The notes beneath the pieces are model-generated. The model searched no databases. It saw only the letters and a list, made by a program, of their open reading frames with translations, and was not told the DNA's origin. A program made the position numbers and the translations under genes. Source: Flavobacterium litorale (GTDB lineage: Bacteria; Bacteroidota; Bacteroidia; Flavobacteriales; Flavobacteriaceae). From it: DNA of 64,000 nt. Shown piece by piece: positions 29,503 through 63,301 of the stretch; position 1 is the first letter of the stretch; each line of letters starts with the position of its first letter. The stretch spans positions 2,606,501-2,670,500 of the forward strand of contig NZ_CP080429.1 of NCBI RefSeq assembly GCF_019613795.1. Reading direction: 5' to 3'.

Positions 29503-29504
29503 AT

Positions 29505-30455: not shown

Positions 30456-30469
30456 ATGGTCGGGGTGGA

Positions 30470-30834: not shown

Positions 30835-31083
30835 GTGGAGCTACATTAAGCTCATTATGTATTGCCAGAATAGCACTACGGGCTTGTTGGAGGTAAGCAG
30901 TGCCAATTTGTTCTATTGCAGTCTGGTTTAAATCAGGCATCTGAGCTTCATTTGGTGTGCTCACTGCTCCGTACAGTAGTTCGCTAGGAAATTGACCCAA
31001 ACCTCCTGTTGTGCCTGTTTTGGTACTTACTCGCTCAGTACCTACATAATAGTGCTTGGTATAGCTAAGGGATAAACCTTGTT
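30835..31083 (-). pseudogene. Fragment of an RHS core (displaced)
   Basis: The minus-strand frame reads LSYTKHYYVGTERVSTKTGT to SAILAIHNELNVAP, matching the main RHS core just before its tip (YTKHYYVGAERVSTKTG to AIHNELNVAPP). It has a stop codon immediately upstream and ends exactly at ELNVAP, where the IS1-like unit begins. It shows that at least cassette 3 was once joined to a longer RHS gene. The 300 bp around it hold no other gene. Confidence 0.85.
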
Positions 31084-38000: not shown

Positions 38001-41000
38001 GGTAAGTTTTTGTACAAACATATTATCCTCAATACTGTATTCGATTACTGCATTTGCTGTTTCATCTATTTGTTGTACTGTTTTTACACGATTGCGAGCA
38101 TCATAAGTTGTTACCGTAATAGGGGTTTCTTGTGCTGGCAGTTGTACGTATTGTAATGAGGCATTGTCAATATTATAAACATCTGTAGGGTATGGTGTTT
38201 GGGTAATTGGTAAATAGTTTTCTGTAGTTCTACCAAATGCATCTTTTTTCTCAAAGCCATTTATAATCCATTTTGTAGTTGTGCCTGTTTGATGCGTTTT
38301 TTTAACTTGTAAAGGTTGCCCAAAGCCATCTGCTATACTTATGGTTAGTAGCTCGTTGGTTGTAGTGGTGGTACCATTTGCAAACTCAGGGTCAAAATGT
38401 CGGGTAACGGCATAATGTTGTGCTGTACCTTCTTGTGTTATATCATCGTACTCAAAACTTCCTGTTGCAGGAATCATATATTCATCTGAGGCTAATGTTG
38501 TACTCATTGCATCCATTTGCCCTTTGTAATTCATGCGAATGGTCCAAGCATTACCGTTACCATTTTGATTTTCGAGTGCTAGTTCGTTAGGTCCTGTTAC
38601 TTCTACTACCCTACCCCTATTATCGATACGAGTTCGCATGGACTGACCGTTACTATCGGTAGTAAATACAGGGATTCCGAATAAATAATTGTATGTAGTA
38701 TAGGAGTTTTCTTCAAATGAATTACCATATGTAATAGGATAAGTAGACAAAACTGTATCGTAATAGATACCCGTATTATAAATTTCTCCTAAGTCATTGG
38801 TATTGTCTGTTTGAAGTACAACTATTAAATTCCCATAATCATCATAAACAAATTTTGTAACATTTATTTGATTTTCATTGAGTTTAGTAATAAGTCTGTT
38901 TACCTTACCTTTTGTACTCACACGGTATACAGTTCTTTGGCGTAATAGTTCATTGGTGGCATTATTAAAAACCCTTACCCTAGTTGGAAAACCTGTAGCA
39001 TTATCGAGATTTGCTATAGCTCCTTCGTCATAGTATACTATCTCAGTTCTGTAAACATCATTATTACCCTCGCCATAGTCAACGTAAGTAAGGAGGTTAC
39101 CGTACTTGTCGTATTCTTTAAACTCTTTCACTGCAGTAAGCCCTTCACCATTTTCGTAGGATGTGGCGGTAACACGTACGGGAGCTATAAATAGTCTTGA
39201 TTTATCGAACAAGGTCGTTGCTAAGCCCGTTTGTAAAAAGTTATCCTCCTCAGTTGCATTTAAGTTAACTATAGGGTTATCTGGATCTAGTATGTTATAT
39301 AATGTTTCTTGCTTAGAGAGTATTTCATCAGATGCGTTATATAGGATACTTGATTTTTCAGCTCCGCTCAAATAATAGTTGTTGTTGTGGTATGATTTTT
39401 CAGCTTTTCTGTATGTTTCCTCTGTATCTGGATATTTTTCTTCTATGATTAGTTTTTCATATCCAAAAAATTCTCGCTCTCTTCTGTCGTATTTTGGGTT
39501 TTCGTACGTTGCACTTGTTAATGTTTCATCAGGTTTAAGGTTATTATCTCCAGTAAAACCATCATTAGTTCGTATCGTGGTTAACACCCATTTATTATTA
39601 GGCATATCATAAGTGTTACCGTCTCTTTTATAATCAATAGTCCAACTACCTCCTAACGGAAGATTTACTTTTTTAAGTAAATGGGTTTTTGCTAGTTTAT
39701 TTAAATGTACAGAAATATTACTATTGTTTATATTACTACCTTTTTTAAGTACATCTGTATAGCCATCTCCATTTATGTCCTGTACAGCTGCAATAGTTTC
39801 GTTATGGCTGGCATTGGTACCAGCAGAAATAGAAGCAGTAATTTTTATAGGCGGTAAAAATACAAGTGGAATTATAAAGCCTTTTGTAAAAGAACCATAA
39901 ATATTACCTGATACTGATTCGTTTTTCTGTATTCTACCATCTCCATCATTATAAAACGTTTTAGGAGTACCTTCAAAACCTCTACCAGTATTTAAATAGT
40001 AGTTGGAACTGCTTGAACTGTTTATTACCAAATCGGGTAAACCATCGCCATTTACATCTACAAACCCTGCTCCTGTGTGTGCCTCACTAATTGCGACACC
40101 TAAACCAGCAGCAAACGAATTACCTAAAGATACCCCTCCTCCAAGGCTACTATTTTCTCTTTTATTCGCTACAAGAGAGTTTCCGCTTGCAGTGTACCAT
40201 ATTACTTCATTAGTAAAACTATACCCTCTATTTAATCGTACTTTTATTTCGTTTTCCTTAATTAAAACTTTATCCACTAATCCGTCGCCATTAATATCTA
40301 TCCATTGCTTTGAATTGTATGATTCGCCACTACTGGTATTTATACCAGAATTTACGTTCGTTTTGGTTTTATTACCTGTAGATTGCGCGTTGGACGACTC
40401 TGAAGAATTTGGAAACATAGCAGGTACATTAATTCCAATTGTTTCGTCATCGCTCTGATCTCCAGAAACAAAAGGTGTACCTAAATCAGTATTGGGATCA
40501 TCTGCATTGGATACAGTGAAATCGGTTAATGCACCAAGCATATTGGTATATTGAATTTTACTTCTGGAAACAATATCGGGGTAACGATCGCCATTAATAT
40601 CAATATATTGATTCAATACTTGTGAATTCGCTTCACTTTTAGTGCCATTAGTGAATCCGACACCTCCAGACTCTGCGCTACCTTTTGATTTTGAACGTTG
40701 TGTTAAACCAATAAAAACACTATTTTGATTAGGAGTATTTTGTAGCTGCAATACTGTATCAGGATCAATATATATATCAAAAATATCATTTTCAGCAAAA
40801 CGACCTAATTTTGTAACCAATATATTATTATTAATACCATGTTCTGCGCTTGGTATAGCATCGTTACTATACATCCTAGCTCCACTATTAGCCTGTGTGT
40901 AGTTTACATAACGCAATGAGAAGGTATTGGTTGAGTTTTCATCGTTAGGGTCTGTAGGCTCAACATCACCCTCATACAGAGCACTAACATCAATTGGGTT

Positions 41001-44000
41001 TATTCCATAGGCTACTGATGCAGGACCTATTTGTAATTCTCCTGCATTCTCTCCTTCTTCAATAAAAGAAACATCGAGACCACCGTTATATAAAAACTGC
41101 CCCCAACCCCGATAAGGTATCCCATAAAAGTCTTCTGTTTTTGCTATAAATGGACTTTGTAATGTTACCTCACTAAAACTATAATCATTTAAGTTAGGTA
41201 CATCAGGGCTTAATACAAAATTAATATCGGCGTTATTATTTATAAGGTTAGGATTGTCTATATAAAATGCAGCATATATTTTACCTGCATTACCACTTTT
41301 TATCTGATTTATGTCTTCCTTGGAGAAAGTATGTTCGAAATAATATTCATCAAGTAAAGGATCTATTTCGCCAACAGTACTTGTTGTTTTACTTAAAACA
41401 TAACCTTGTGATTGTGTATTTAAGATATAAAACGTTTTCTTAACAACAACATTAACAGCATTTAACGATTGTGTTCCAACTTTTTGTTTGACAACCCAGT
41501 TTACTTTTAAAGGATATAGCGCATCATCAATATAACCTAAAGCTTCATTACTTGGGAGTGTAAAATTATGACTAATTCTAAGGAATGGGTCATCCTCATC
41601 TGCAGCAGATTGTATATTGGGGTCAGGTAATTCTCCACCTAAAATCCAATAAATGCTTTCGTTTATATTATCGTTATAAATTTTATATTTTACAGGTGCA
41701 TTTAACGGATCATCTGTAACGTTATTTACAATATAATATGGTTCCCAATTTATCGATTCCCAATTTACATTAGAGTCACTCTCTACGTAAAATTGTAAAA
41801 TATAATAGTAATTGGTGTTACTATTAGAAGGAATAGATACTTGGTCTGTACTTGCATTACTAGATGATGTAATGCCCCCTGTTACTGGATTATAGGTTTT
41901 TCTCCAAATATTTTCAACAACTTCACTCCCATCTTGTAAACTTATCTTCGTTTTTTTAATAACGAAGCTTATCGCATCAGAAAATTGATCTTGAGTGTAC
42001 GGGTTAGTATCTAGATTGAAATTGATCTGGTACGTATTATTATTATCAAGTTCTAGTAAGCCTGCATTATTATTAATATAGTCATTTGTAGAACGATACT
42101 CATTTCCAAACTTACCTGTTTCGTCATCGATGTTGAATTGGAACTGATTACCAGCAGTATCAAATCCTTGGTAATCTACTCTAGGATTCCACTTTACCTC
42201 AGCACCATATCCATAACCTACATTGTGCGCCCTGAAAAATATTAGATCGCCTTTTTCAACATCAATAGGATGAGAACCAAGACCAACACTGGACACTTGA
42301 GTGCTATTATTAGGTAAATTATGGGTTAAACTCTCAATTATTTCTGCATCGCTGTTTGCAGACCCAGATTTGAAGTGTTCTATTGAAAGTTTTATCTGGT
42401 TGGATCCATCTAAAGGATGATTAGTGTAATAGTTTATATTTTTAAGTTCGATAAATTCATCGGCACTTACACTTACTTTACCAGTATAAGGTGCACTCCA
42501 TACTTTAACATGGTCAAATTGGGGATATTCGGCTCTCAATTCATCTAACGATTCCAATTCGAGATCATTTAAAAGCTCTGCATTTATGATTCCAGAAACT
42601 ATTGGGTTTTCGGAATTATTAACATTTTGGTCAAAATGTCTAGTAAGTGTATTATTTACACTGCCAGTAATGGTAGTATTAAAATTAACTCTACCACTAG
42701 CTACCATATCGGGTAAACCATCACCATTAAAATCAGTAAAATAATTATCCGTTCTTGATCTGGTTGTACTCCAACTCTTACCAGCACTTACTCCAAAACC
42801 TGCAAAGCCAACACCGCCATCAATTCCAAAACCAGAGGTTCTTGAGGTTGTAGTACTTAATTTATTTACTCCAGATATAGGAACAAAATCTCCAAAACTA
42901 TACTTAGTACCTTCTTCATTTAAAATATTCGGTCTGTAAAACAGCCCTGAAGGAGCCTGATACACTTTATCAGGCAATCCATCACCATTAACATCCAGAA
43001 AACTAATTTTTGTTTTTTGATTATTTTTACTGCTATTATAAGATACACCCAACGTACCTCCAATGTTTATTGGTACAAACCCTATACCAACACCACCACG
43101 AAGCCCAAACGAAAAGCCTGAAGCTGTAGAAGTTCCTAATGGAGAGCCATTAGGAACTATATTCAACCCTCCTTGTATATCGTCTAATTTTCCAGATACA
43201 CCATCATTAGATGCAATATTCTCCCACGAATCAGGAGTAGATGTTGAGATAATGACATCGCTATCAGGATTAAAATCATCATCATAATACTCTAACGTAT
43301 TAGAATAAAATAGCTCATTACCAGCATCAAATTCAGATATTTTTATAAGCTGTTGCTTTAGAAAGCTTTTTTCTTCATAGTCAAACTTGTAAGATCGAAT
43401 ACGTGTATTTGGCTGTCCTTGCTGATGAAACGATACGTGAATTTCAGTAAGTAAGTCGTCAAATACCTGAAAGTACCCGTTACGTGCATTAAAAGTTACG
43501 TCATTTCTGGGTGTAAAAGTTGAAGGGTTACCTAACGGTAAAGAGTATTCGTTTCTTATAAAATCAATTTTGTAGTAGTTTGGTATATTGGCATGCATTG
43601 TATAGGTAATACTCGAAATATAAAGTTCTTGAGCTTCTATGGATGATTCTCCTATACTTACATTAGAATTAGTTTTATCGTAGTTATACTCTATATAATT
43701 ACCAAAAGGGTCTTGGATACGTTTTAATGGCCAGTAACCAATATTACCACTATTGGCTACACCGTTAATATCTGGAGTTCTTAACACAATAGAGTTATCA
43801 GCAGCATTGTCATCTGGGGTTCCCCCATAAAACGATTTATTACCCTGTTTATCTGTTACTTCCCACCAATAATCTGTCGGATTGGTACCATGACGAATAA
43901 TTTCTTGGTAACCTCCTTCTTTACGGGTATAAAATTGTCTGTCATCAACTCTAGCGATAGCATTTGTTTCCCTATGCGGGTTTGTATAGTTGGGTGTTTG

Positions 44001-45725
44001 CTCAGTACCTGCTGCATTTAAAACCAAATCTGAGCCACTTAATGAATATAACTCTGTTTCGTTATCACCATCAAACAAGGGTGCACCCCATTTAGTATTT
44101 AGGGTAATGGCTTGCGTAGCTAAATTCCAACCTAAACCCATCCAGCCATTACCGCCTTCGCTATTATAAGTAACTTGTAATGATGGCTGTAAACCGTTTC
44201 TGCCAGGTGGTAGTTTTATAGGAAAGCTAGTGGTAGCTACCCCTGTACTATTTGGGCTGGGTGGTTGTATACCTACTATACCTGCACTAGGGTCGGCATA
44301 CTTCATATCCGTAATAGTAGTGGGCGCAAAACTTCCTACTTCTGGAGACTGGGGTACTTGAATTACACCGTTTATGTAATCTGTTTCGCCTTCACCTCCT
44401 GCAATAGTTGTTACAATTTCTTCATTACCATAATCTAGACTATCAACCGGTAGCATTTTCCAGTTACGCTGCTTTTTATCAAAATAAAAAGTTTTTACGT
44501 CTTTCGGGGTGTAGCCATCTGGTATTTTATCAAAATCGTATTTTAATCTAAGTTGTATTGCTGTACTGTCTGTTACATTGTATTTTTTTACTTTATAACC
44601 CAGAAATTTACCTGCAGTTACATTTTTCATGTCGTTACTTAGTGTTTTTACATCTTTAAATTGTAGCCCTTTAACACTAACGCTTCTTTTAGGGCTACTA
44701 ACTATTGCTTCTTCTTCAACAGTAATAGTTAATGCATCGTAAATGGCGCAATCGGTTAAATTGTACCCAATTTCGTTAGTGCTTAATTTTGAATCTGAAA
44801 ATTGATAATCACTATCGCTATTTTGATAGGTTAAAGGATAGCTAACAATTCTTTTACTTTCATTGTTACCATTGTAAATAACATCTATTTTGGTTGTAGT
44901 TTCTGGTACATTTTGCAATACATGTTCAAAAACACCATTTTGAACAGGAATGGTTTGCCCAAAGGCTTCAACGTGTTTAATATCAGTAGCTATAACGCTG
45001 CCCAATAGGTAAACATTTCCGTTAAAATTTATAAGCTGCTGCTGTTTTGTTGAGATCGTATTGTTATCTCCATTCTCTAATTTGATTCTGAGATTTTTAA
45101 TCTCATATTGATAATTCTCCTCTACTCTACGGTTAAAGAAAATTTCATTTATTCCTGACTTTAGTTGCGTTAATGATACGTCTTCGCTAACTGCATTCCA
45201 CTGCTGACTTTTTAAGATAACTTTACCTCCGTATGATGGGTTACTGTTTATACTTTTTGTAGTATGTGCTGCACTTGCTACACCGTAAACATCATAAACT
45301 AGAGTAGCTTTATAATTGTTTGAGTGGATATTGTCTGGCAAGTTAATTGTAAAAAAGTTATCTCTAGGGTTTTCACCTTCAGAGCTTGATAATTTACCTA
45401 TAACGCCTTGTGGTTGTTGGGCATAAAATACATTGTATGATTTGAAAGTAGCATTCGGCTGAGCAAGTGTAGTCTTTTTAGGTGTTGCAGGAACTTTTAA
45501 AGTATCACTCCCACCTTTATTGGAACGCTCTGAATTACTAACCTCCTCAGTGCCACTAGAAGAACTGTAATTTATTATACTACTTCGTTTGGCATCGTTG
45601 ATATAATGGTTTGAGATTATTTGTTGTATTGGTTGACCAAATAAAACTAAGTTGCTTAAAATAGAAGTAAACAATACTTTTACTGCGTACGACTTTCTGA
45701 TTTTGTTAAAATTGTTTACTGCCAT
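35079..45725 (-). CDS. Giant SpvB/FG-GAP/RHS polymorphic toxin (TcB+TcC-like)
   Basis: A 3548-residue protein. Order: N-terminal hydrophobic export signal (VLFTSILSNLVLFG, ~17-31); adhesin-like region; SpvB/TcB module at ~475-560 (FPIKLPPGRNGLQPSLQVTY, GWMGLGWNLA); repeated FG-GAP/VCBS calcium loops between ~910 and ~1990 (DVNGDGLPDKV, DFNGDGLPDMV, DINGDRYPDIV, DINGDGYTDVL); YD repeats ~2150-3230; the RHS core end HYFHPDHLGSSSYIT (~3230) and the DPTGM boundary (~3330) typical of RHS self-cleavage. The last ~218 residues are a JAMM-like domain (VHLHNLIFD ... GSDGD). In Tc toxins the B and C proteins form a closed shell holding the toxin; here both are one chain. The stop of the T9SS gene is 2 bp upstream. 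Confidence 0.88.
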   Translation of the reverse strand: MAVNNFNKIRKSYAVKVLFTSILSNLVLFGQPIQQIISNHYINDAKRSSIINYSSSSGTEEVSNSERSNKGGSDTLKVPATPKKTTLAQPNATFKSYNVFYAQQPQGVIGKLSSSEGENPRDNFFTINLPDNIHSNNYKATLVYDVYGVASAAHTTKSINSNPSYGGKVILKSQQWNAVSEDVSLTQLKSGINEIFFNRRVEENYQYEIKNLRIKLENGDNNTISTKQQQLINFNGNVYLLGSVIATDIKHVEAFGQTIPVQNGVFEHVLQNVPETTTKIDVIYNGNNESKRIVSYPLTYQNSDSDYQFSDSKLSTNEIGYNLTDCAIYDALTITVEEEAIVSSPKRSVSVKGLQFKDVKTLSNDMKNVTAGKFLGYKVKKYNVTDSTAIQLRLKYDFDKIPDGYTPKDVKTFYFDKKQRNWKMLPVDSLDYGNEEIVTTIAGGEGETDYINGVIQVPQSPEVGSFAPTTITDMKYADPSAGIVGIQPPSPNSTGVATTSFPIKLPPGRNGLQPSLQVTYNSEGGNGWMGLGWNLATQAITLNTKWGAPLFDGDNETELYSLSGSDLVLNAAGTEQTPNYTNPHRETNAIARVDDRQFYTRKEGGYQEIIRHGTNPTDYWWEVTDKQGNKSFYGGTPDDNAADNSIVLRTPDINGVANSGNIGYWPLKRIQDPFGNYIEYNYDKTNSNVSIGESSIEAQELYISSITYTMHANIPNYYKIDFIRNEYSLPLGNPSTFTPRNDVTFNARNGYFQVFDDLLTEIHVSFHQQGQPNTRIRSYKFDYEEKSFLKQQLIKISEFDAGNELFYSNTLEYYDDDFNPDSDVIISTSTPDSWENIASNDGVSGKLDDIQGGLNIVPNGSPLGTSTASGFSFGLRGGVGIGFVPINIGGTLGVSYNSSKNNQKTKISFLDVNGDGLPDKVYQAPSGLFYRPNILNEEGTKYSFGDFVPISGVNKLSTTTSRTSGFGIDGGVGFAGFGVSAGKSWSTTRSRTDNYFTDFNGDGLPDMVASGRVNFNTTITGSVNNTLTRHFDQNVNNSENPIVSGIINAELLNDLELESLDELRAEYPQFDHVKVWSAPYTGKVSVSADEFIELKNINYYTNHPLDGSNQIKLSIEHFKSGSANSDAEIIESLTHNLPNNSTQVSSVGLGSHPIDVEKGDLIFFRAHNVGYGYGAEVKWNPRVDYQGFDTAGNQFQFNIDDETGKFGNEYRSTNDYINNNAGLLELDNNNTYQINFNLDTNPYTQDQFSDAISFVIKKTKISLQDGSEVVENIWRKTYNPVTGGITSSSNASTDQVSIPSNSNTNYYYILQFYVESDSNVNWESINWEPYYIVNNVTDDPLNAPVKYKIYNDNINESIYWILGGELPDPNIQSAADEDDPFLRISHNFTLPSNEALGYIDDALYPLKVNWVVKQKVGTQSLNAVNVVVKKTFYILNTQSQGYVLSKTTSTVGEIDPLLDEYYFEHTFSKEDINQIKSGNAGKIYAAFYIDNPNLINNNADINFVLSPDVPNLNDYSFSEVTLQSPFIAKTEDFYGIPYRGWGQFLYNGGLDVSFIEEGENAGELQIGPASVAYGINPIDVSALYEGDVEPTDPNDENSTNTFSLRYVNYTQANSGARMYSNDAIPSAEHGINNNILVTKLGRFAENDIFDIYIDPDTVLQLQNTPNQNSVFIGLTQRSKSKGSAESGGVGFTNGTKSEANSQVLNQYIDINGDRYPDIVSRSKIQYTNMLGALTDFTVSNADDPNTDLGTPFVSGDQSDDETIGINVPAMFPNSSESSNAQSTGNKTKTNVNSGINTSSGESYNSKQWIDINGDGLVDKVLIKENEIKVRLNRGYSFTNEVIWYTASGNSLVANKRENSSLGGGVSLGNSFAAGLGVAISEAHTGAGFVDVNGDGLPDLVINSSSSSNYYLNTGRGFEGTPKTFYNDGDGRIQKNESVSGNIYGSFTKGFIIPLVFLPPIKITASISAGTNASHNETIAAVQDINGDGYTDVLKKGSNINNSNISVHLNKLAKTHLLKKVNLPLGGSWTIDYKRDGNTYDMPNNKWVLTTIRTNDGFTGDNNLKPDETLTSATYENPKYDRREREFFGYEKLIIEEKYPDTEETYRKAEKSYHNNNYYLSGAEKSSILYNASDEILSKQETLYNILDPDNPIVNLNATEEDNFLQTGLATTLFDKSRLFIAPVRVTATSYENGEGLTAVKEFKEYDKYGNLLTYVDYGEGNNDVYRTEIVYYDEGAIANLDNATGFPTRVRVFNNATNELLRQRTVYRVSTKGKVNRLITKLNENQINVTKFVYDDYGNLIVVLQTDNTNDLGEIYNTGIYYDTVLSTYPITYGNSFEENSYTTYNYLFGIPVFTTDSNGQSMRTRIDNRGRVVEVTGPNELALENQNGNGNAWTIRMNYKGQMDAMSTTLASDEYMIPATGSFEYDDITQEGTAQHYAVTRHFDPEFANGTTTTTNELLTISIADGFGQPLQVKKTHQTGTTTKWIINGFEKKDAFGRTTENYLPITQTPYPTDVYNIDNASLQYVQLPAQETPITVTTYDARNRVKTVQQIDETANAVIEYSIEDNMFVQKLTNENGQTNKTYTDIRGRQRKTIQNEGVTGGNGNPVTPNTTTFGYNAINELLTVTNTQGQTTRYTYDLAGRKTEVKHPDRGVVTFTYDTANRMTVQTNSNLLLDDAGESIEYTYDFGRLIGITYPQNPENNVTYTYGAYDDPLALSENAVGRLLQQEDASGVQVFGYGRMGELTKNLRSVAVAGYQSYWFFTQWQYDSWNRVQKIIYPDEEEVDYEYNTAGALKKITSIIPNRTVQDIVENIKYNDYGERHSIKYGNGATTTYNYDSRRRMNQINHNFSANFAITKDYAYDPLSNITSVTTGNPTSSLPDAGEIGGPINHTYQYDAYNRLTHAEGNYVGANDIDGDYLRQEYSLDMEYNVNHTIRKKRQVQYQGAVSNHTDVLTGGTPVYKNSYELDYNYDATQGSNRNITTNNTDYTYGQPHAVRKLTETPSWVTNPAADDPRIKHKEITYDANGNQTEIAEILGDEKTVLRRNVWDEENRLLAVDLKPDEKTVHPVAVYTYDAGGERTIKYNYDRIDTHSNATEAGESSVDNIMIYPSGLLVGKAIYNTEKGANRLSYTKHYYVGAERVSTKTGTAIGMGYFPEGALDNQMVNLNQETIASTSDVYVDQARTAIVAIHNELNVAPPVLLPDMDEDGYTGADHQESHGLELHTHYFHPDHLGSSSYITNGAAEVTQHMEYLPFGETLVDEHNNSHNTPFKFNGKEFDEETGNYYYSARYYDPKLSIFISVDPLVEQTGDTYGYCYQNPINLTDPTGMSADLPPTDYYNLYGKHVKHVDDGSDAKKMVLTFSKKSKEVDETIAKGYYVNQFTDSEVEKMDEIYSYGKKDETELEKGFLRGQNGTSSEIVTGVEKREIGSEEWQHAIDDLSSKGDTPASSVHLHNLIFDKNKKVKQFGAPRGSDGDILEKNILGIQPSIALGWKRIEIVDFNSVSTEKNYKYLPKVGFFTLGVREIISVDYSTLKNAIKKMNKHKP

Positions 45726-53357: not shown

Positions 53358-54392
53358 TTAAATTTTCTTATAATCAGTAGGACTCATTTTATATTTTTTC
53401 TTGAAAATTTTTGAAAAATAGCTGTTACTTGAGAAACCTACCCCACTCGCTACGTCTGATACGTTTAAATCGGATTGTTTTAAAAGTACCAATGCTTTTT
53501 CCAACCTAGTGTTAGTAACATATTCGTTAACCGTAGTATTAAAAAGATGTTTAAAACCTGTTTGCAGTTTGCTTGGATTTAAACCTGTTATTCGTGACAG
53601 GCTAACGATTGATAAATCTTCAGTGGGATTTTCTTTTATATATATCGAAATATCTTCTACCCTATTAAGTTCGTTAACGCGTAATATTGAACGGTCATTA
53701 TTATTTAATAAGTCATCTTCAAACTGTTCTAGCTGTTTTACAAAAATTTGTAAACCCATACTTTCCAGATAAAATTTCCTGATTAACTTTTGATTTTCGT
53801 ATTTGGATATATCCTGAAGTAAATTTTTAAACTCTATTCCATAAAAACCATCGTGGTAAAAGGTTTCAGCAGCATCAATATCTTTAAACAATTTTTGCAA
53901 TTTTGAGGTAGAATCTCCCAATTCACAAGTAGTATTTACCAGAAACTTTCGCCTATCAATTTCTAAGCTTACAATCTCAACTTTTTTATCTTTAGGGAAT
54001 GATAGTACATGACCATTATTACGCTCGCTCGCAACAATGGCACATTTATACTGCTCTATGAGGTGAACGGTCGACTCGTTGCTAAAACTATGTTCTACAG
54101 GACCTTCAACGGAATAAATATATTTAATGGGATGCACATCATTTACTGAAAAATCAACACGTACATCTTTATTGAATTTGCATTTATAAATGATTATTCC
54201 TAAACCATTATCAAAATTTACCCCCCTAATTTGTCCTTCGCCTATAAATGCAGGAATATCCAAATAATACTCGTTACAATTTTCTTTATACTCAACATTT
54301 AAGCAGCTAGCTAAGTTTTTTATAACATCTTTTAGGGGCAAAGAACTTACTTTACAAATTTTCATTTGACTTTCATTTAAAGTATTAATCAC
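53358..54392 (-). CDS. AraC-family transcriptional regulator
   Basis: 344 residues. The C-terminal ~95 residues contain two helix-turn-helix motifs (LSIVSLSRITGLNPSKLQ and VSDVASGVGFSSNSYFSKIF, then FKKKYKMSPTDYKK), standard for AraC/XylS. The N-terminal part is a beta-rich ligand or dimerisation domain without a named match. An ATG 27 bp inside (54365) is an alternative start. It is the last gene before the CRISPR RNA region; no sequence link to CRISPR control was seen. Confidence 0.88.
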   Translation of the reverse strand: MINTLNESQMKICKVSSLPLKDVIKNLASCLNVEYKENCNEYYLDIPAFIGEGQIRGVNFDNGLGIIIYKCKFNKDVRVDFSVNDVHPIKYIYSVEGPVEHSFSNESTVHLIEQYKCAIVASERNNGHVLSFPKDKKVEIVSLEIDRRKFLVNTTCELGDSTSKLQKLFKDIDAAETFYHDGFYGIEFKNLLQDISKYENQKLIRKFYLESMGLQIFVKQLEQFEDDLLNNNDRSILRVNELNRVEDISIYIKENPTEDLSIVSLSRITGLNPSKLQTGFKHLFNTTVNEYVTNTRLEKALVLLKQSDLNVSDVASGVGFSSNSYFSKIFKKKYKMSPTDYKKI

Positions 54393-54585
54393 TTTATTTA
54401 CGGGTTCGAATAATCCAAATTTACATTTTTATCAAACACTATCAGATAGCAATATGTTAATAATAGCAAATTTATTTGTTAGAATCGTCTACCAGATTTG
54501 ATGCTGGGAAGCAGAACCCAATACTTTAAAGAAAAAATAAATTATGTAATCCTAACATCAACCAATCCGAATCGTAGCTATCTTT

Positions 54586-54693
54586 TTAAACGAAAAATAC
54601 GTCCCAAAGACCAGATTAAATATTTTCACAAGAAAGTTATCATTATTTATTGAAAAATAAATTACTGTAAATCAATTGTTTAAAAAATATAAT
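54586..54693 (-). ncRNA. Decayed tracrRNA paralogue
   Basis: Read on the minus strand this copies the layout of the tracrRNA at 54972-55062: a weak anti-repeat, CAATAA at the nexus, TTGTGAAAATATTTAA (tracrRNA: TTGTGAAAACATTTAA), GGTCTTTGGGAC in place of GGTCTTCGGATC, then TTTTTCGTTT. The terminator stem has lost several pairs (about four Watson-Crick, two wobble, two mismatches), and the anti-repeat no longer pairs well with the array repeat. Probably a non-functional duplicate. Confidence 0.65.
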
Positions 54694-54701
54694 CAAAATT
54701 A
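54694..54701 (-). promoter_or_regulatory. -7 motif ahead of the decayed tracrRNA copy
   Basis: TAATTTTG on the minus strand matches TAnnTTTG. The identical octamer occurs on the minus strand at 54948-54955. It lies between the putative guide target (54711-54735) and the decayed copy. Confidence 0.4.
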
Positions 54702-54710
54702 AATAAATTA

Positions 54711-54735
54711 TCACGCTACGCTATAATTATTATGC
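54711..54735 (+). promoter_or_regulatory. Putative target site of the orphan guide
   Basis: The plus strand starts TCACGCTACGC, the exact complement of the last 11 bases before the orphan repeat; after one extra T, ATAATTA matches, then TT/AA mismatch, then ATGC matches. In total 22 of the 24 guide bases are complementary. The PAM side would be the minus-strand flank TAATTTATTT. It abuts the TATATTTG motif at 54737. Confidence 0.5.
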
Positions 54736-54736
54736 A

Positions 54737-54744
54737 TATATTTG
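54737..54744 (+). promoter_or_regulatory. -7 promoter motif upstream of the orphan guide
   Basis: TATATTTG is an exact TAnnTTTG match. Transcription from here would start near 54750, pass a 15-codon frame (ATG 54756 to TGA 54803), and read through the orphan guide and possibly on toward cas9 at 55216. No -33 TTG at the preferred spacing. Confidence 0.5.
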
Positions 54745-54893
54745 CAACAGACATAATGGATAAAACATATCATTCAGACCACATTAGAGTTGAAGAACTT
54801 TGAATACCTCATAAGTATTTTTGAAGTGCGCTTCTTATGTCATTTAACTGTACTGTCTAAGCTAGACACGTTTAATAATTAAATCACTATTAA

Positions 54894-54945
54894 GCATTTT
54901 AATTATGCGTAGCGTGAGTTGTGAATTGATTTCAAAATTGTTATT
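54894..54945 (+). ncRNA. Orphan crRNA-like unit (spacer-like 24 nt plus half repeat)
   Basis: 54918-54945 matches the crRNA-sense array repeat over its first ~28 bases (GTTGTGAATTG, A for C, TTTCAAAATTGT), then diverges. That is exactly the part that pairs with the tracrRNA anti-repeat: 22 canonical pairs or wobbles with one internal mismatch, as for true repeats. The 24 bases before it (54894-54917) are complementary to 54711-54735. It could be transcribed with the leader and processed with tracrRNA by RNase III. It may instead be the right arm of an inverted repeat around a ~205-bp insertion. Confidence 0.55.
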
Positions 54946-54971
54946 TACAAAATTAGGCAGTACAGTTTTTT

Positions 54972-55062
54972 AAAAACGAAAAACGCGATCCGAAGACCGC
55001 GTTAAATGTTTTCACAACGGAATAATCCTTATTGCGAATTGTTTTCAAAATTGTAGCACAAT
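54972..55062 (-). ncRNA. tracrRNA of the type II-C system
   Basis: Minus strand: anti-repeat CTACAATTTTGAAAACAATT (55056 downward) complementary to the array repeat, then CAATAAGGATTATTCCG forming the nexus, GTTGTGAAAACATTTA, and a terminator ACGCGGTC-TTCG-GATCGCGT followed by TTTTTCG. TTCG tetraloop and T-tract make a strong intrinsic terminator. A TATATTTTG motif (55075-55067) lies just upstream. It is transcribed away from cas9. It should pair with crRNA and be cut by RNase III before loading into Cas9. Confidence 0.88.
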
Positions 55063-55215
55063 TATACAAAATATATTTTTAATACTAACTTCATTTTTTG
55101 CTTAATTTGGAAAAAATACCCATTATTGGGGATAAAACTTACGAGCTACTTTTATAATTTTATCGTAGTTAAAATTTAGATAATATATTACCCCCTAAAA
55201 AATAATTTACTAAAC

Positions 55216-58200
55216 ATGAAAAAAATATTAGGACTTGATTTAGGCTCTGCCTCTATAGGCTGGGCATTCGTACATGAAGATGATATAGACAAAAAATCTG
55301 AAATTATAAATACTGGAGTTCGTATTGTACCACTAACTACAGAAGAGGAATCGGACTTTAAAAAAGGAAATACCATTTCTATTAATGCCGACAGAACACT
55401 GAAACGTGGAGCAAGGAGAAACTTACAACGTTTTAAACTAAGGCGTGAGGCTTTACTTGAAATTTTTAAAGAAGCTGGATTTATACCACAGGATTATCAT
55501 TATGCCGAAGATGGAGAGAATACTACTTTTTCTACTTACGAATTAAGGGCTAAAGCAGCAACCGAGATGATTTCGAAAGAAGAGTTAGTCAAAGTACTGC
55601 TAATGATTAATAAAAAACGGGGCTATAAAAGCAGCCGTAAAGCAAAATCGGAAGAAGAAGGGCAGGCAATTGACGGTATGGCGATAGCCAAAGAGCTATA
55701 TACTAAAAATATCACTCCTGGGCAGTGGGTATATACCAGCCTATCCGAAGGCGGAAAGTACATTCCTGACTTTTACCGTTCTGACCTTATTAGCGAATTT
55801 GAAAAAATTGTACGCTTCCAGAATCAGTTTTATCCTGAAATTTTTAATGATAAACTGTTGGAAGTTATAAAAGTTGAGAAATCCAAAGTTTCCGATTATT
55901 TCAAGACATTACATATAGAGCTTGCCGAAAATAAAGGTAATTATCAGGAAAAAAGATTACAACAATATGAATGGCGGGCTAATGCTGTAAAGCAGGAATT
56001 AACCCCACAAGAAACTGCTTATATACTAACGGAGATTAAGAAGCAGATTAATAACTCAAGTGGTTATTTAGGCGCTATTAGCGACCGCAGTAAAGAATTG
56101 TATTTTGATAGCCTTACCGTAGGGCAATATCTGTATCAACAACTTAAAGAAAATTCACATAATAGCCTGAAAAACCAAGTGTTTTACCGTCAGGATTATA
56201 TGGACGAGTTTGATAAAATATGGAAAATACAATCAAAGCATCATAAAGAACTCACCGAAGCACTTAGAAAAGAAGTTAGAGATATTACTATTTTTTACCA
56301 AAGGCGTTTAAAATCGCAAAAACACCTGATAAGCCACTGCGAATTTGAAAAACAGCATAGGGTTATCCCAAAATCATCTCCCCTATTTCAGGAGTTCAGG
56401 ATATGGCAAAACATTAATGCTATTGTTATTAAAAATACTGAAACAAAAGAAACCTTGCTTTTAGATGAAGATGCTAAAGATAGCCTTAGTGAGGCACTAA
56501 ACTTTAAAGATAATTTAACCGATTTACAGCTTCTTAAATTCTTTAATCTGGATAAACGAGTGCATGAGGTTAACTTTAAAAAAATTGAAGGTAACAGAAC
56601 CAATACAGCATTGTATAAGGCTTTTGAAGCTATTTTACGACAGGAAGGACAGGATGCCCTTGACTTCTCTAAAATGGATGCTGAGGATATAAAGAGTACA
56701 ACAGCATTATTATTTAAGGACCTGAATATTGATACCCATATTATAGATTTTAATGCTGAGCTACAAGGTAATGACTTTGACAAACAACCATATTACCAGT
56801 TATGGCACCTACTCTATTCGGCAGAAGATGATGCTAAACTAAAAGATACATTACAGGAAAAATTTGGCTTTAAGCCAGAACACACGCACCATATTGCTAA
56901 TGTAGACCTGCAAGCTGATTATGGTAACTTGAGTGCTAAAGCGATAAAAAAGATACTCCCTGAGTTAAAAGATGGGCATATGTATGATAAAGCATGCGAT
57001 ATGGCGGGCTACAATCATTCTTCATCATTAACAAAAGAAGAGAATGAGAACAGACCTCTAAAAGAAAAATTGGAACTTCTAAAAAAGAATAGTCTTCGTA
57101 ATCCTGTGGTTGAGAAAATACTTAATCAAATGATAAATCTGGTTAATGCTATTATTGCCGACCCTACAATGGGAACGCCTAATGACATACGCGTAGAATT
57201 AGCTCGTGAACTTAAGGCGAACAGTGAACAGCGTGGGGAAATGACTAGGGCAATAAATAAAGCTACGAAAGAACATGAAGAGATAAGAAAATTACTAAAA
57301 TCGGAATTTGGCATACCAAGAGTAACACGAAATGATATTATACGCTATAAACTATGGAAAGAAACGAATGGTATATCTATATATACAGGTAAGTGCATAG
57401 AGGCATCTAAACTATTTACTAAAGAATACGATATTGAACATATAATACCCAAATCACGATTGTTTGATGATAGTTTTTCTAATAAAACGCTTTGCGAAAG
57501 GCAATTTAATATTGATAAAGCCAACCGTACTGCATTCTCAATCTGTCAAGAGAAACATAGCGAATTTGAGTTCGAACAATATCAAAAACGTGTTAATGAA
57601 TTGTTTACATCTGGTAAGATAAAATATACTAAATACAAAAAGCTCTTAATGGCTGACAATGAAATCCCAGAAGGGTTTATTGAAAGGCAGTTAAGAGAGT
57701 CACAGTATATTGCCAAAAAAGCTAAAGAATTGTTACAGGAAGTTTCAAGAAATGTAACTCCTACTATTGGAAGTATTACCGATAGGCTACGTGAAGACTG
57801 GGAATTGATTGAAGTAATGAAAGAACTTAACTGGGACAAGTACCATAAACTGGGACTTACCAGAGAAGAAACGGGTAAAGGCGGTGAGCGTTTACGAAAA
57901 ATTAATGACTGGACGAAACGTAACGACCACCGCCACCACGCTATGGATGCTCTAACGGTAGCTTTTACAAAACCACAATATATTAATTATTTAAATAACC
58001 TTAATGCTAGAGATAGAGATGGTAAAAAGATTAATAGTATATTAGGTATCGAAGAAAAATACTTAGAGTATAAAAAGGGTAAACTAAAATTCAAATCACC
58101 CATTCCAAATTTTAGAGAAGAAGCGAAAAAACATTTAGAAAACATTATTGTTTCGTATAAGGCGAAGAATAAAGTAGTTACTAAGAATAAGAATATTACT

Positions 58201-59265
58201 AAAACAGCTAAAGGTACCAATAGTAAAATACAACTTACACCACGTGGGCAACTACATAAGGAAACAGTATATGGTAAAATAGTACAGTATAATAAAAAAC
58301 AGGTAAAAGTAAATGCAGGCTTTACTGCCGATGTTATTAAGCAGGTAGTTAATGCAGCATATAAAGATGCTTTGTTAACGCGTTTGGAAGCTAATGACGG
58401 CGATCCTAAAAAGGCATTTACAGGTAAAAACTCACTAACCAAAAACCCCGTTTACTTAAATAATAATACTCAGGTTGTTCCTGATAAAGTAGAAATATCG
58501 TCCCCCATAGAGGTGTATACGATACGAAAAGAGGTTACTCCTGATAACTTTAAAGATGAGAGAAGCATCAATAAAGTTATTGACGCTAAAGTAAGAGAAT
58601 TGCTTTTAAACCGACTAAGGGAATATGGCGATGCTAAAAAAGCTTTTTCAAATCTTACTGAAAACCCTATTTGTTTAAATAGAGAAGAAAATATAACTGT
58701 AAAACGAGTTACTATAAGTGGTGTTAGTAATGTAGAAGCATTGCATACCAAAAAAGACCATAATGGCAACGAAATTTTGGATAACAAAGGTAAACCTATT
58801 CCTACTGATTTTGTGAGTACTGGTAATAACCATCATGTAGCCATTTACAGGGATGACAGAGGCAACTTACAAGAAGAGGTTGTTTCTTTTTACGAGGCTG
58901 TAATACGCAAAAATTTAGGGCTTCCTATTATTGATAAAAATCATAAAAATGGGTGGGAGTTTTTATTTACCATGAAACAAAATGAGTTTTTTGTTTTCCC
59001 AAATACTGAAACTGGTTTTGACCCTGAAACTATTGATTTACTTGATCCTAAAAACAGGGAACTAATTAGCCCTAATTTATTTAGAGTGCAAAAAATAGCG
59101 ACAAAAAATTATTATTTCAGACATCATCTTGAAACCACAGTTGAAGATAAAAAAGAGCTGAAAAATATTACCTATAAACCAATACAAAGCCTTAAACCTA
59201 TTGAACCTATCATAAAAGTAAGAGTCAATCATTTAGGACATATAGTACAAGTCGGAGAATATTAA
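55216..59265 (+). CDS. cas9: CRISPR-associated endonuclease Cas9, type II-C
   Basis: 1349 residues with intact catalytic sites: RuvC-I GLDLGSASIGW (Asp8), Arg-rich bridge helix (KRGARRNLQRFKLRREAL), RuvC-II IRVELAREL (Glu661), HNH YDIEHIIPKS (Asp739, His742) with NKTLCERQFNIDKANR (Asn), and RuvC-III RNDHRHHAMDAL (His907/His908, Asp911). The C-terminus is the PAM-interacting region; it is long for II-C, as in other Bacteroidota Cas9s. It cleaves DNA matching the crRNA spacer. The gene is 11 bp upstream of cas1; only cas1 and cas2 accompany it, which defines II-C. Confidence 0.97.
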   Translation: MKKILGLDLGSASIGWAFVHEDDIDKKSEIINTGVRIVPLTTEEESDFKKGNTISINADRTLKRGARRNLQRFKLRREALLEIFKEAGFIPQDYHYAEDGENTTFSTYELRAKAATEMISKEELVKVLLMINKKRGYKSSRKAKSEEEGQAIDGMAIAKELYTKNITPGQWVYTSLSEGGKYIPDFYRSDLISEFEKIVRFQNQFYPEIFNDKLLEVIKVEKSKVSDYFKTLHIELAENKGNYQEKRLQQYEWRANAVKQELTPQETAYILTEIKKQINNSSGYLGAISDRSKELYFDSLTVGQYLYQQLKENSHNSLKNQVFYRQDYMDEFDKIWKIQSKHHKELTEALRKEVRDITIFYQRRLKSQKHLISHCEFEKQHRVIPKSSPLFQEFRIWQNINAIVIKNTETKETLLLDEDAKDSLSEALNFKDNLTDLQLLKFFNLDKRVHEVNFKKIEGNRTNTALYKAFEAILRQEGQDALDFSKMDAEDIKSTTALLFKDLNIDTHIIDFNAELQGNDFDKQPYYQLWHLLYSAEDDAKLKDTLQEKFGFKPEHTHHIANVDLQADYGNLSAKAIKKILPELKDGHMYDKACDMAGYNHSSSLTKEENENRPLKEKLELLKKNSLRNPVVEKILNQMINLVNAIIADPTMGTPNDIRVELARELKANSEQRGEMTRAINKATKEHEEIRKLLKSEFGIPRVTRNDIIRYKLWKETNGISIYTGKCIEASKLFTKEYDIEHIIPKSRLFDDSFSNKTLCERQFNIDKANRTAFSICQEKHSEFEFEQYQKRVNELFTSGKIKYTKYKKLLMADNEIPEGFIERQLRESQYIAKKAKELLQEVSRNVTPTIGSITDRLREDWELIEVMKELNWDKYHKLGLTREETGKGGERLRKINDWTKRNDHRHHAMDALTVAFTKPQYINYLNNLNARDRDGKKINSILGIEEKYLEYKKGKLKFKSPIPNFREEAKKHLENIIVSYKAKNKVVTKNKNITKTAKGTNSKIQLTPRGQLHKETVYGKIVQYNKKQVKVNAGFTADVIKQVVNAAYKDALLTRLEANDGDPKKAFTGKNSLTKNPVYLNNNTQVVPDKVEISSPIEVYTIRKEVTPDNFKDERSINKVIDAKVRELLLNRLREYGDAKKAFSNLTENPICLNREENITVKRVTISGVSNVEALHTKKDHNGNEILDNKGKPIPTDFVSTGNNHHVAIYRDDRGNLQEEVVSFYEAVIRKNLGLPIIDKNHKNGWEFLFTMKQNEFFVFPNTETGFDPETIDLLDPKNRELISPNLFRVQKIATKNYYFRHHLETTVEDKKELKNITYKPIQSLKPIEPIIKVRVNHLGHIVQVGEY

Positions 59266-59276
59266 TCTATCAAGAT

Positions 59277-60513
<1,237 letters not shown>

Positions 60514-60627: not shown

Positions 60628-62033
60628 GTTGGGAATCATGAGTAAAAATACAATTTTGAAAGCAATTCACAACTTTAAAGATAACGATAAAAGTACGAAT
60701 TTTGTTGGGAATCATGAGTAAAAATACAATTTTGAAAGCAATTCACAACCAGCACGTCCTTTTTAATTTCATCGGCGTGGTTGGGAATCATGAGTAAAAA
60801 TACAATTTTGAAAGCAATTCACAACTCAATTATATTTCTAATACTTTTCATAAATGTTGGGAATCATGAGTAAAAATACAATTTTGAAAGCAATTCACAA
60901 CATAACCTCCGGTAATGCTACAGTATGTAATGTTGGGAATCATGAGTAAAAATACAATTTTGAAAGCAATTCACAACACGACGGGCGAAGCGGATAACCT
61001 TAAACTCGTTGGGAATCATGAGTAAAAATACAATTTTGAAAGCAATTCACAACTCTTTTACAATGTAAGAACCAGGCTTCCACGTTGGGAATCATGAGTA
61101 AAAATACAATTTTGAAAGCAATTCACAACAATCTCGTCATTGAATATTTTATCCACTAAGTTGGGAATCATGAGTAAAAATACAATTTTGAAAGCAATTC
61201 ACAACGTACCTTGTTAGGGAATCGAACCCAACCCGTTGGGAATCATGAGTAAAAATACAATTTTGAAAGCAATTCACAACGGAGGCAGGCGCAGGAACGG
61301 CAGCCGAAAGTTGGGAATCATGAGTAAAAATACAATTTTGAAAGCAATTCACAACGGAATGATAGCAGGCAAGACAATAGATGCAGTTGGGAATCATGAG
61401 TAAAAATACAATTTTGAAAGCAATTCACAACAGTCAATTAGTTTTTCCATTTTGAATATAGTTGGGAATCATGAGTAAAAATACAATTTTGAAAGCAATT
61501 CACAACTCAATGATACCTAACACAGTAATACCTTCGGTTGGGAATCATGAGTAAAAATACAATTTTGAAAGCAATTCACAACAGTACTATAAACTACAAA
61601 AACATATATCTAGTTGGGAATCATGAGTAAAAATACAATTTTGAAAGCAATTCACAACAAATAAATAATCATCAATCTCATTAATCTCGTTGGGAATCAT
61701 GAGTAAAAATACAATTTTGAAAGCAATTCACAACTGTAAAGGTTAGCTTTGTCTATTTTATGGTGTTGGGAATCATGAGTAAAAATACAATTTTGAAAGC
61801 AATTCACAACAAGAACCTTATTTATTTTACGTATGAGTCGTTGGGAATCATGAGTAAAAATACAATTTTGAAAGCAATTCACAACGACAATTGAGCGAAC
61901 ATTTGAGCAAAAATAGTTGGGAATCATGAGTAAAAATACAATTTTGAAAGCAATTCACAACATAGATTTTATGCTACATTTTATCCATTAGTTGGGAATC
62001 ATGAATAAAAATACAATTTTGAAAGCAATTCAC
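60628..62033 (-). CRISPR. Type II-C CRISPR array, 19 repeats and 18 spacers
   Basis: Repeat of 46 bp (first copy 60628-60673; plus strand starts GTTGGGAATCATGAGTAAAA, ends GCAATTCACAAC); spacers are 29 or 30 bp. Repeats 1-18 are identical. The last (61991-62033) has a G-to-A change and loses its final three bases, so the cas-distal end is the old end and the cas2 side the insertion end. Pairing with the tracrRNA requires crRNA to be read from the minus strand, toward cas2. In that sense each repeat carries TTG, 19 bp, TATTTTTA, close to a Bacteroidota promoter, as in II-C arrays with promoters in each repeat. Spacer 8 (61206-61234) resembles a tRNA 3' end. Confidence 0.98.
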
Positions 62034-62283
62034 CCTCCCCTCCGCATGTTAAGACCGTGACATCCCTCTATGAGTCCTGATAATCTGGCTAACCAAAATA
62101 ACAGCAAGAAACTTAATACGGAATCTAATAACCTTATCAGTCCTCTAAGATCAAGAGCAAGCTTTATAAAGTCATATGATTTAATATGGATAAACCACCT
62201 CTTTTTTATATCAAAAGGAATCATTTTAAGGTATAAAAGCCCCCTATTTGTTTAACCATTGTTTAACCCTTAAAAATAAAAAA

Positions 62284-62578: not shown

Positions 62579-63301
62579 CTACATATCGAGACACACATAC
62601 TTATTAATCATATAATTAGTTATTGGTTTTAATGTTTTACCTGTTCCTGGGTGTAACCCTACTGAGGTAAAAAACTCCAACTCCTTTCTTGCATTCTTTC
62701 CATACCAAATTTTAACTTTCCCTGTTGGGTCAAAAAACTCAGTATCACAATCAACAGATATCTTTCTAAGATTGTCAACCCGATCTTCACTATATAGTTT
62801 TAATTGCGAAAGATTATATTTTTCCAAATCAAAGCTTACTTCAATATATCTATCATTCTCCCATATCATCCAACGCTCATTGTTGGAAAAATGGAGAATT
62901 AATAAAATTACAGCCATACAAATTGTACTACTTATTATAAGGAGTACCTTATTACTCTTCAAACTTGTTAATGTGCTATTTAATTTTTTAGGAGAGTATT
63001 CCCCTGCAGAATTTCTAATTTTATTAGCTTCTTTAAAACTTTCAAAGTTATCATAACCCAAATAGCTACAAAGTGCTTGTACTACTTCTGACCTGTTAAT
63101 TAGCAATTCATCTTCATTTTGATTTAATGCCGATTTATAGTATTTAGTAAGGCTTCTTTCTCCAAAAGGGAATTTCTGATTTTCACCGATAAAATCAGAC
63201 AACACTTTGGCAGCAGCGGTATCTGAGGTCGTTGTACCATTTTTATCCTTCTCTCTTGCTTTTACTTCTTGAAAAGCACTAATTATCAAATTCCTGTGCA
63301 T
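62579..63301 (-). CDS. Unrecognised protein with N-terminal helical domain and one TM segment
   Basis: 240 residues. The N-terminal ~95 residues are helical (ISAFQEVKAREKDKNG, SDFIGENQKFPFGERSLTKY, EVVQALCSYLGYDNFESF) and resemble a small domain seen in Bacteroidota accessory proteins, possibly binding DNA or protein. One hydrophobic segment (VLLIISSTICMAVILLILHF) follows, then a C-terminal ~95-residue domain (YIEVSFDLEKYNLSQLKLY, VDCDTEFFDPTGKVKIWYG). No function can be named. Its place beside the tRNA fragment suggests element cargo. Confidence 0.6.
   Translation of the reverse strand: MHRNLIISAFQEVKAREKDKNGTTTSDTAAAKVLSDFIGENQKFPFGERSLTKYYKSALNQNEDELLINRSEVVQALCSYLGYDNFESFKEANKIRNSAGEYSPKKLNSTLTSLKSNKVLLIISSTICMAVILLILHFSNNERWMIWENDRYIEVSFDLEKYNLSQLKLYSEDRVDNLRKISVDCDTEFFDPTGKVKIWYGKNARKELEFFTSVGLHPGTGKTLKPITNYMINKYVCLDM

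Follow-up and report, generated by a model that had tools for sequence, protein, structure and literature searches.

The type II-C locus of Flavobacterium litorale

The stretch of DNA analyzed here (the window; 64,000 nucleotides, positions 2,606,501 to 2,670,500) is part of the one-contig, 2.73-Mb genome of Flavobacterium litorale and includes a type II-C CRISPR-Cas locus with the following components, in positions of the window:

55216-59265, plus strand: cas9, type II-C, 1349 aa, with RuvC_III and HNH_4 domains (domain annotation)
59277-60170, plus strand: cas1 (domain annotation)
60127-60513, plus strand: cas2 (domain annotation), as the ORF is listed; the true start is probably later
60628-62036, minus strand: CRISPR array in its crRNA orientation, with 18 identical repeats and a decayed last copy
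54965-55060, minus strand: tracrRNA gene, with antirepeat (55055-55032), nexus, and terminator hairpin (sequence and pairing)
54583-54691, minus strand: decayed second copy of the tracrRNA gene (gapped alignment to 54967-55075)

The array, transcribed from the minus strand, combines a 46-nt repeat, which in crRNA orientation begins GTTGTGAATTGCTTTCAAAATTGT, with spacers of 29-30 nt. Among the related loci (designated by L numbers below), the closest named Cas9 is that of Flavobacterium suaedae (L031; 87% identity). The tracrRNA gene adjoins the upstream side of cas9 and has a nexus similar to those of relatives. Its decayed copy retains 74% identity across 65 nt, and the alignment score of 81 compares with a mean of 38 and a maximum of 53 in 500 shuffles. 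A second tracrRNA-like sequence is also found in L166, 696 nt upstream of cas9, where the nexus and terminator are the same and the antirepeat is altered, recalling the decayed copy of the window. The flanks have been rearranged between the window and F. suaedae, as indicated by a 240-aa ORF (62579-63301) whose relative directly adjoins the tracrRNA in F. suaedae (two sequences compared). Elsewhere, the window encodes a 3548-aa ORF with RHS/YD-type repeats (35079-45725; from translation only) and a 6S-Flavo RNA (15471-15578; Rfam RF01685).

An orphan half-repeat whose guide matches its own predicted promoter

Between the decayed copy and the tracrRNA gene lies a compact series of elements:

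54694-54701, minus strand: -7-like box TAATTTTG on the PAM side of the target (box match; putative function)
54701-54710, minus strand: bases 3' of the protospacer (PAM position), TAATTTATTT, fitting the NNRTTT of own-spacer protospacers
54711-54735, minus strand: protospacer of the orphan guide (complementarity to 54894-54917)
54737-54744, plus strand: -7 box TATATTTG of the module promoter (match to consensus)
54750-54893, plus strand: payload RNA, a candidate effector with a predicted start, homologous to the payload of L107
54777-54791, plus strand: 15-mer GACCACATTAGAGTT common to the window and L107 modules (genome search)
54846-54860, plus strand: 5' arm of a long-range stem enclosing guide and half-repeat, 93% complementary to 54953-54967
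54894-54917, plus strand: 24-nt guide segment of a crRNA-like RNA (complementarity to 54711-54735)
54918-54948, plus strand: orphan half-repeat, pairing with the tracrRNA antirepeat (repeat alignment and pairing energy)
54953-54971, plus strand: 3' arm and then a T run, terminator-like (sequence, arms, and fold)

As read from the sequence, the layout of this module is thus a promoter with a protospacer, a payload, a guide, a half-repeat, and a terminator. The original prediction, which overlooked the decayed tracrRNA copy, the terminator-like arms, and the payload segment common with a relative, had described the half-repeat as matching only the tracrRNA-pairing half of the array repeat. This was borne out at 23 of 24 positions (54918-54941), and the match continues to 54948 with one gap and one further mismatch. 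The predicted pairing with the antirepeat (-25.9 kcal/mol) is close to that of the array repeat (-27.5 kcal/mol), and the single change in the first 24 positions (C to A) falls where the array repeat is also left unpaired. Recomputing the guide-target pairing returned the same pairs, bulge, and mismatches as had been described, namely, 11 perfect seed pairs, a one-base bulge, 7 pairs, 2 mismatches, and 4 pairs; in the window the match does stop at the half-repeat boundary, and the -7 motif said to touch the target is present and adjoins it. The guide-target score is 18, compared with a maximum of 14 across 2000 dinucleotide shuffles of 54400-54890, and none of 300 shuffles was as good in an anchored test. 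The seed 11-mer is absent elsewhere in the window. One further candidate target in the genome (G000:C1:222050) has a mismatched seed and was taken as a chance match. The T run after the second arm suggests that the crRNA-like RNA probably ends there, and a long-range stem layout of a like kind is seen in L035 and L107.

Two readings that dispense with a guide function were weighed against these observations. The inverted repeats formed by the two arms and a single-strand DNA fold z-score of -3.3 are what a small mobile element (MITE) inserted at 54711-54917 with terminal inverted repeats would present. The original prediction had itself raised mobile-element copies as a possibility; the segment 54700-54960 is single copy in the genome and no target-site duplication is visible by eye, which together argue against a MITE, as does the finding that, in eight other families, the sequences placed likewise with respect to half-repeats are unrelated (see below). 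We therefore regard an insertion of this kind as extremely improbable. The nearby decayed tracrRNA copy raises the possibility that the half-repeat is debris, either a leftover repeat or the antirepeat of that copy, with a chance match upstream. We consider this highly improbable, since the half-repeat resembles the repeat rather than the antirepeat and keeps the unpaired position, the guide match is not attained in the 2000 shuffles, the target has the right PAM, and the payload is shared with genome G362.

Comparable modules upstream of other cas9 genes

A related-locus search yielded 86 candidate stretches, of which 76 were confirmed as 76 loci, and further cas9 loci came from genome searches. 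Upstream scans of 100 and 29 regions were then repeated together with controls as a joint scan of 119 regions, from which 9 known duplicates, two partial loci, and regions of <200 nt were left out; L176 duplicates L011, giving 118 distinct regions, and neither of these two holds a candidate. Candidates were orphan half-repeats classed by filters as neither antirepeat nor array, and a hit was an anchored target score of >=12, a threshold that was chosen after the data had been seen and that L010, L031, and L035 just reach.

In the 118 distinct regions, 14 of 17 orphan half-repeats have an anchored target, on the strand opposite to the guide in all 14. The remaining 104 regions lack a module detectable by this procedure, which misses half-repeats with >3 mismatches in 16. 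The reversed repeat gave 0 candidates, eight shuffled repeats gave 0-3 candidates and 0 hits, and shifted guide windows gave 0-3 hits of 16-17. At the chosen threshold, three half-repeats have no target: that of L042, which is an array end at a contig edge, the weak one of L060, and that at -37 in L107, a solitary diverged full-length repeat 37 nt before cas9 with a top target score of 11. Single-locus tests with 300 shuffles, which covered seven loci, gave 0 for L001, L031, L062, L107, and L110, 0.003 for L010, and 0.017 for L035. The 14 half-repeats pair with their own antirepeats at -16 to -26 kcal/mol (for L166, -18.8 kcal/mol with the tracrRNA site by cas9), and contiguous seeds range from 8 to 13 nt across the families, which are as follows (target positions relative to cas9, strand of the orphan half-repeat, and PAM-side bases):

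Window family: target -505 to -482; plus; TAATTTATTT
L031, F. suaedae: target -67 to -44; minus; GAGTTTTTTA
L035, Litoribacter ruber: target -273 to -250; plus; AGGTTCGCTG
L062, Bacteroidia PG1894_40: target -83 to -60; minus; GAATTTCTAC
L107: target -177 to -154; minus; GGATTTGTTA
L010: target -82 to -59; minus; AAAACGGTAA
L159: target -40 to -17; minus; GAAACATTAA
L160, L162, L164, L166, and L168: targets between -629 and -564; plus; TAAACGGAGT, TAAACGGATT, GAAATTATAA, TAAACGGAGA, and GAAACATAAA
L182 and L184: targets between -344 and -309; plus; CAATACTTAT and CAATACATTT

L010 and L159 are counted as separate families because their guides differ, though their places are orthologous. For the L062 guide there are two matching sites, one of 12 nt at the cas9 promoter and one, at -241, of 19/20 nt; the latter scores best but is without PAM-like bases and an exact -7 box, and the site used in the family list is the one at the cas9 promoter. 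The scan also revealed a palindrome, TAYGG-N4-CCRTA, upstream of cas9 in 19 of 119 regions (e.g., L011, L033, L168, and L182), mostly ~70 nt before the gene and perhaps a protein operator; it is present in 6 of the 14 module loci and absent from the window.

The PAM and covariation of guide with target

The PAM side of the target, where the original prediction looked for a conserved motif, could be compared with protospacers of spacers from the same array. Among the 48 matching phage records covered, 2 of the 18 window spacers have protospacers: spacer 2 (60750-60779) matches Croceibacter phage P2559S at 30/30 positions (flank GCGTTTGCGC), and spacer 1 (60674-60703) matches Croceibacter phage P2559Y at 29/30 (flank CAATTTTTTA). 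These are the leader-side or the oldest two spacers of the array, and they match Croceibacter phages although the bacterium that carries the array is a Flavobacterium relative. The NNATTT at the window target agrees with the NNGTTT and NNATTT of these protospacers. With the F. suaedae array, for which all 24 records were covered, one spacer matches Flavobacterium phage 1/32 (27/30; flank TAATTCGTTA) and one matches Cellulophaga phage phi3ST:2 (26/30; flank ATGTTTACCT), and the four flanks all fit NNRTTY. The module targets of the window, L031 (GAGTTT), L062 (GAATTT), L107 (GGATTT), and L035 (AGGTTC) fit this pattern too, and PAM position 3 is A or G in all 14 elements. Two reports give PAMs at the same positions 3-6, NNATAT and NNAAAG, for related Cas9 proteins of F. 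psychrophilum (PMC4814470, PMC10309648).

The module flanks of the f5 group differ at positions 3-6 (AACG, AACA, AATT, and ATAC), and the arrays of L126 and L129 from this group gave only repeat-like matches, which yield no PAM for its Cas9 proteins. The L034 array gave only Riemerella-phage repeat matches in 11 of 11 phage records; for the L033 and L127 arrays, 20 of 71 and 60 of 93 records, respectively, were examined. A spacer of the L107 genome matches Flavobacterium phage FCL-2 with two mismatches and a flank, TAATCTTTGG, that is near but not equal to NNRTTY. A window spacer also matches, at 27/30, a site in L135, which comes from a Flavobacterium genome; this match was left unused because its flank, GGATGGCTTT, misfits the PAM, and the site is in an intergenic stretch that resembles a terminator.

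Paired changes of guide and target, which the original prediction had anticipated, are evident in two families of close relatives and in one orthologous pair. The seed is ATTGAATCG in L160, L162, and L164 and ATTAAATCG in L166 and L168, guide and target being equal in each, and between L182 and L184 one G/A change in the guide, outside the seed, recurs as the same change in the target. In the orthologous intergenic regions of L010 and L159, both guide and target are replaced. The window and L107 have a common payload and unrelated guides, each matched by its own target. Together, the paired changes and the fitting PAM make the reading as a guide-target module testable.

Promoter geometry and possible control of cas9

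The -7 promoter consensus of Bacteroidota is TAnnTTTG. In the direction of the crRNA-like transcript, the targets lie upstream of or overlap a box of this form (-5 to 35 nt). Taking one representative per family, with the distance range set after the data had been seen, a transcript-oriented box is found at the target in 9 of 9 families versus 0.78 expected at random places in the same regions. The orientation of the box points to the promoter that makes the guide being the target of that guide. In the promoter of the window module, TTG is absent from the position where a -33 element would be expected.

This geometry also bears on whether guide and target arms might pair inside one transcript as an RNA hairpin or attenuator. 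In favor of this, the arms form inverted repeats and the fold of the transcript is stable; the -7 box, however, lies between the arms or at their edge in all nine families, so that the target arm should be upstream of the transcription start, and neither the fitting PAM nor the end of the window match at the half-repeat boundary is expected of a hairpin. We hold this explanation to be very unlikely.

The original prediction proposed a crRNA-like autoregulator that limits its own transcript and perhaps cas9. Its first part is supported by the comparison of relatives, in that the guide matches the predicted promoter of its own transcript; control of cas9 by the window module is more conjectural. 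In L010, L031, L062, L107, and L159, whose half-repeats are on the minus strand, divergent from cas9, the target site also has a plus-strand -7 box that possibly serves cas9 and is 27 to 127 nt away from that gene, so one bound Cas9 could shut both promoters. The window target is ~480 nt from cas9, with the tracrRNA gene in between. The only exact plus-strand TAnnTTTG boxes in 54390-55216 are those at 54737 and 54816, and the module promoter might feed cas9.

These observations lend some support to a plainer alternative in which the crRNA-like RNA tunes only its own level and that of cas9, as in CreR and tracr-L (see below), and the payload is merely a leader: the five divergent families offer a possible cas9 box at the target, the window has no exact box nearer cas9 than 54816, and payloads are unlike between most families. 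Against it, the targets of the L160 and L182 families are ~310-630 nt from cas9, and neither a tRNA gene nor payload homology despite swapped guides (both described in the next section) would be expected of a leader. The position of the payload between promoter and guide makes the layout of a CRISPR-regulated toxin-antitoxin system likelier than plain autoregulation, which we retain as a serious though lesser possibility.

Candidate payloads

The stretch from promoter to guide measures ~20 to 145 nt across the families (the start for L062 was set by hand). Payload homology between the window and L107, and likewise between L010 and L159, is equaled in none of 400 shuffles; the remaining 19 of the 21 payload pairs show no significant likeness, the nearest of them being L031-L062 (31 of 400 shuffles). 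Of 249 sampled Flavobacterium genomes, 2 contain the 15-mer GACCACATTAGAGTT, each in a single copy that lies inside the module, and none of the 249 has an exact reverse match, as would suit antisense action. Rfam searches with the window module and the payloads of L031 and L062 gave nothing credible. Two further readings were dropped: a tRNA-Trp anticodon arm in the payloads of L010, L031, L062, and L159, which is too short to test, and a conserved peptide, DHIRV, in the window and L107, where the reading frame of the 15-mer, counted from the first ATG that follows the -7 box, is not the same in the two.

The payloads of L182 and L184 (G1068 and G1090) are tRNA genes, for Ile(TAT) and Phe(GAA), respectively. 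G1:C72, G3:U70, and A73 are the main identity marks for alanyl-tRNA synthetase. Among the 67 tRNA genes detected by ARAGORN in the G1090 stretches, with the L182 tRNA included, these three occur together only in two tRNA-Ala genes and the two module tRNAs; two further rows with G3:U70 belong to a Thr gene, in which the end pair is C1:G72, and to a His gene misread by end-trimming. The module tRNA genes with the alanine-type acceptor also appear as entries L247 and L249. In G1090, two tRNA-Phe genes are ordinary and identical to each other, and a third, which differs from them, sits in a cluster. Differences between the two module tRNAs fall in the anticodon loop, the T loop, and one other place, and among 246 sampled genomes of that family the module tRNA was recovered in one, G1090 (G1068 is absent from this result). 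The anticodon stem of the module tRNAs looks weak, which makes a role as decoy no less plausible than one as misreading tRNA.

In the L160 family, a 35-codon basic ORF, MDLKNLICFRSFKHWRSKKIVHLSKPFCFYCKKRK, lies 3' of the half-repeat, ~350-390 nt upstream of cas9, and is nearly invariant in the five genomes (L160, L162, L164, L166, and L168); it may be the effector of that family.

Predicted mechanism and relationship to known systems

Guide, half-repeat, target, PAM, promoter geometry, pairing, covariation, and payload homology are all legible in the sequences compared, and from them we infer transcription, loading into Cas9, binding without cutting, and repression. The promoter at 54737 would give rise to a payload RNA with a crRNA-like tail of guide, half-repeat, and terminator. 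The tracrRNA would pair with the half-repeat, allowing the RNA to be loaded into Cas9, and the guide, with its fitting PAM and 11-base seed, would bring Cas9 to its own promoter. There, the broken match outside the seed would let Cas9 bind but probably not cut, and the gene would stay silent as long as Cas9 and the tracrRNA are intact. Loss or blockage of either would lead to production of the payload, which by analogy with CreTA would most likely be harmful, so that the module would guard the CRISPR system or enforce its retention. We consider self-repression of the module through Cas9 very likely, and the explanation as a whole, a Cas9-dependent, self-silenced payload module guarding the CRISPR system, probable; that the payload is toxic or otherwise costly is a finely balanced conjecture, tilted slightly to the negative.

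The closest parallels are CreTA and CreR, and the module appears to work like both, in what we call a variant with Cas9. In the CreTA order, CreT lies between the promoter and CreA, and the promoter-payload-guide order is alike here. In CreTA (types I-B and I-F, with CreA as antitoxin and CreT as RNA toxin), the guide next to a degenerate ectopic repeat represses a promoter of the same locus, as described in the accessible portions of the reports on this type I system (PMC8501985, PMC9458426, PMC12737573). A degenerate ectopic repeat and a partial guide match to a same-locus promoter are common to both, with the PAM fitting here as well, and the CreTA payload sequesters a tRNA while the payload here is a tRNA gene in two relatives. 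The CreTA promoter drives a toxic RNA; here the payload is a candidate for such a role, homologous in two module pairs and, in two relatives, a tRNA gene with an alanine-type acceptor. CreTA has one or two degenerate copies of the repeat of its locus, and the module has one, a single half-repeat (23/24). CreTA uses Cascade, whereas the module would use Cas9 and tracrRNA (the locus has cas9, cas1, and cas2); this one tested feature, the type I Cascade, places the module outside CreTA.

CreR, described for types I and V-A in the accessible text of PMC12737573, is a crRNA-like RNA that represses a promoter via a CRISPR effector, as proposed here; the present locus is of type II-C and has an extra payload. 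CreR represses a cas promoter; here a possible cas9 -7 box lies at the target in five relatives and not in the window.

Natural repression by Cas9 itself has precedents. The tracr-L RNA, which uses a short match, is a naturally occurring guide through which Cas9 represses its own locus, as is proposed for the module. It differs in being a natural single guide from a longer tracrRNA, with the guide fused to the tracrRNA, whereas here a separate crRNA-like RNA would act with an ordinary tracrRNA, and the guide is on the opposite strand, joined to a half-repeat and not to the antirepeat. The accessible portions of the reports on tracr-L of Streptococcus pyogenes (type II-A; PMC11417352) and on the scaRNA of Francisella (PMC9458426) document these precedents. 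In Francisella novicida (type II-B), scaRNA, a degenerate repeat RNA, directs Cas9 to repress transcription; at the level of sequence, the module likewise has a degenerate repeat RNA that pairs with tracrRNA and a short promoter match, with the difference that the scaRNA target is a distant lipoprotein operon and here it is the module's own promoter. Further, noncanonical crRNAs from cellular transcripts are known for the Cas9 of C. jejuni (PMC8224270), and in Neisseria a scaRNA from a type II-C system functions for the most part independently of Cas9 (PMC13431127), both according to the accessible text. In the literature covered, as far as its text was accessible, the CreTA and CreR examples are of types I and V-A and none is run by Cas9; the literature searched, beyond whose reach most subscription papers lay, held no case from type II-C or Bacteroidota. 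The CRISPR-derived regulatory elements of Shmakov et al. (2023) are reportedly mostly of types I and V-A.

We offer tentatively, as a somewhat doubtful proposal by analogy, that the modules are a Cas9-run counterpart of CreTA in Bacteroidota II-C loci, with Cas9, tracrRNA, and a crRNA-like antitoxin holding a toxic RNA silent, and that the toxin of one lineage is an alanine-charged misreading tRNA. If so, loss or inhibition of Cas9 would harm the cell, and some Cas9 loci would be guarded against loss and inhibitors by built-in poison-and-antidote RNAs. Orphan repeats near Cas9 would be explained, and seed-only CRISPRi would occur naturally in Bacteroidota. Given its anticodon (GAA for Phe or UAU for Ile), the module tRNA would insert alanine where those codons are read, which suggests a new kind of toxin, a rogue tRNA that could poison protein synthesis.

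Repeats of the type II-C form also turned up in phages. Twelve phage records (11 Riemerella and 1 labelled Shigella) match the II-C repeat, and in Riemerella phage RAP44 (30127-33228; L131) and in CRP19 (27808-30995; L132) a non-coding mini-array stands beside a dinD-like gene. One phage mini-array spacer has a 90% match at 7153-7182 of PP067980, a different Riemerella phage, within its tape measure gene, suggesting phage-phage conflict.
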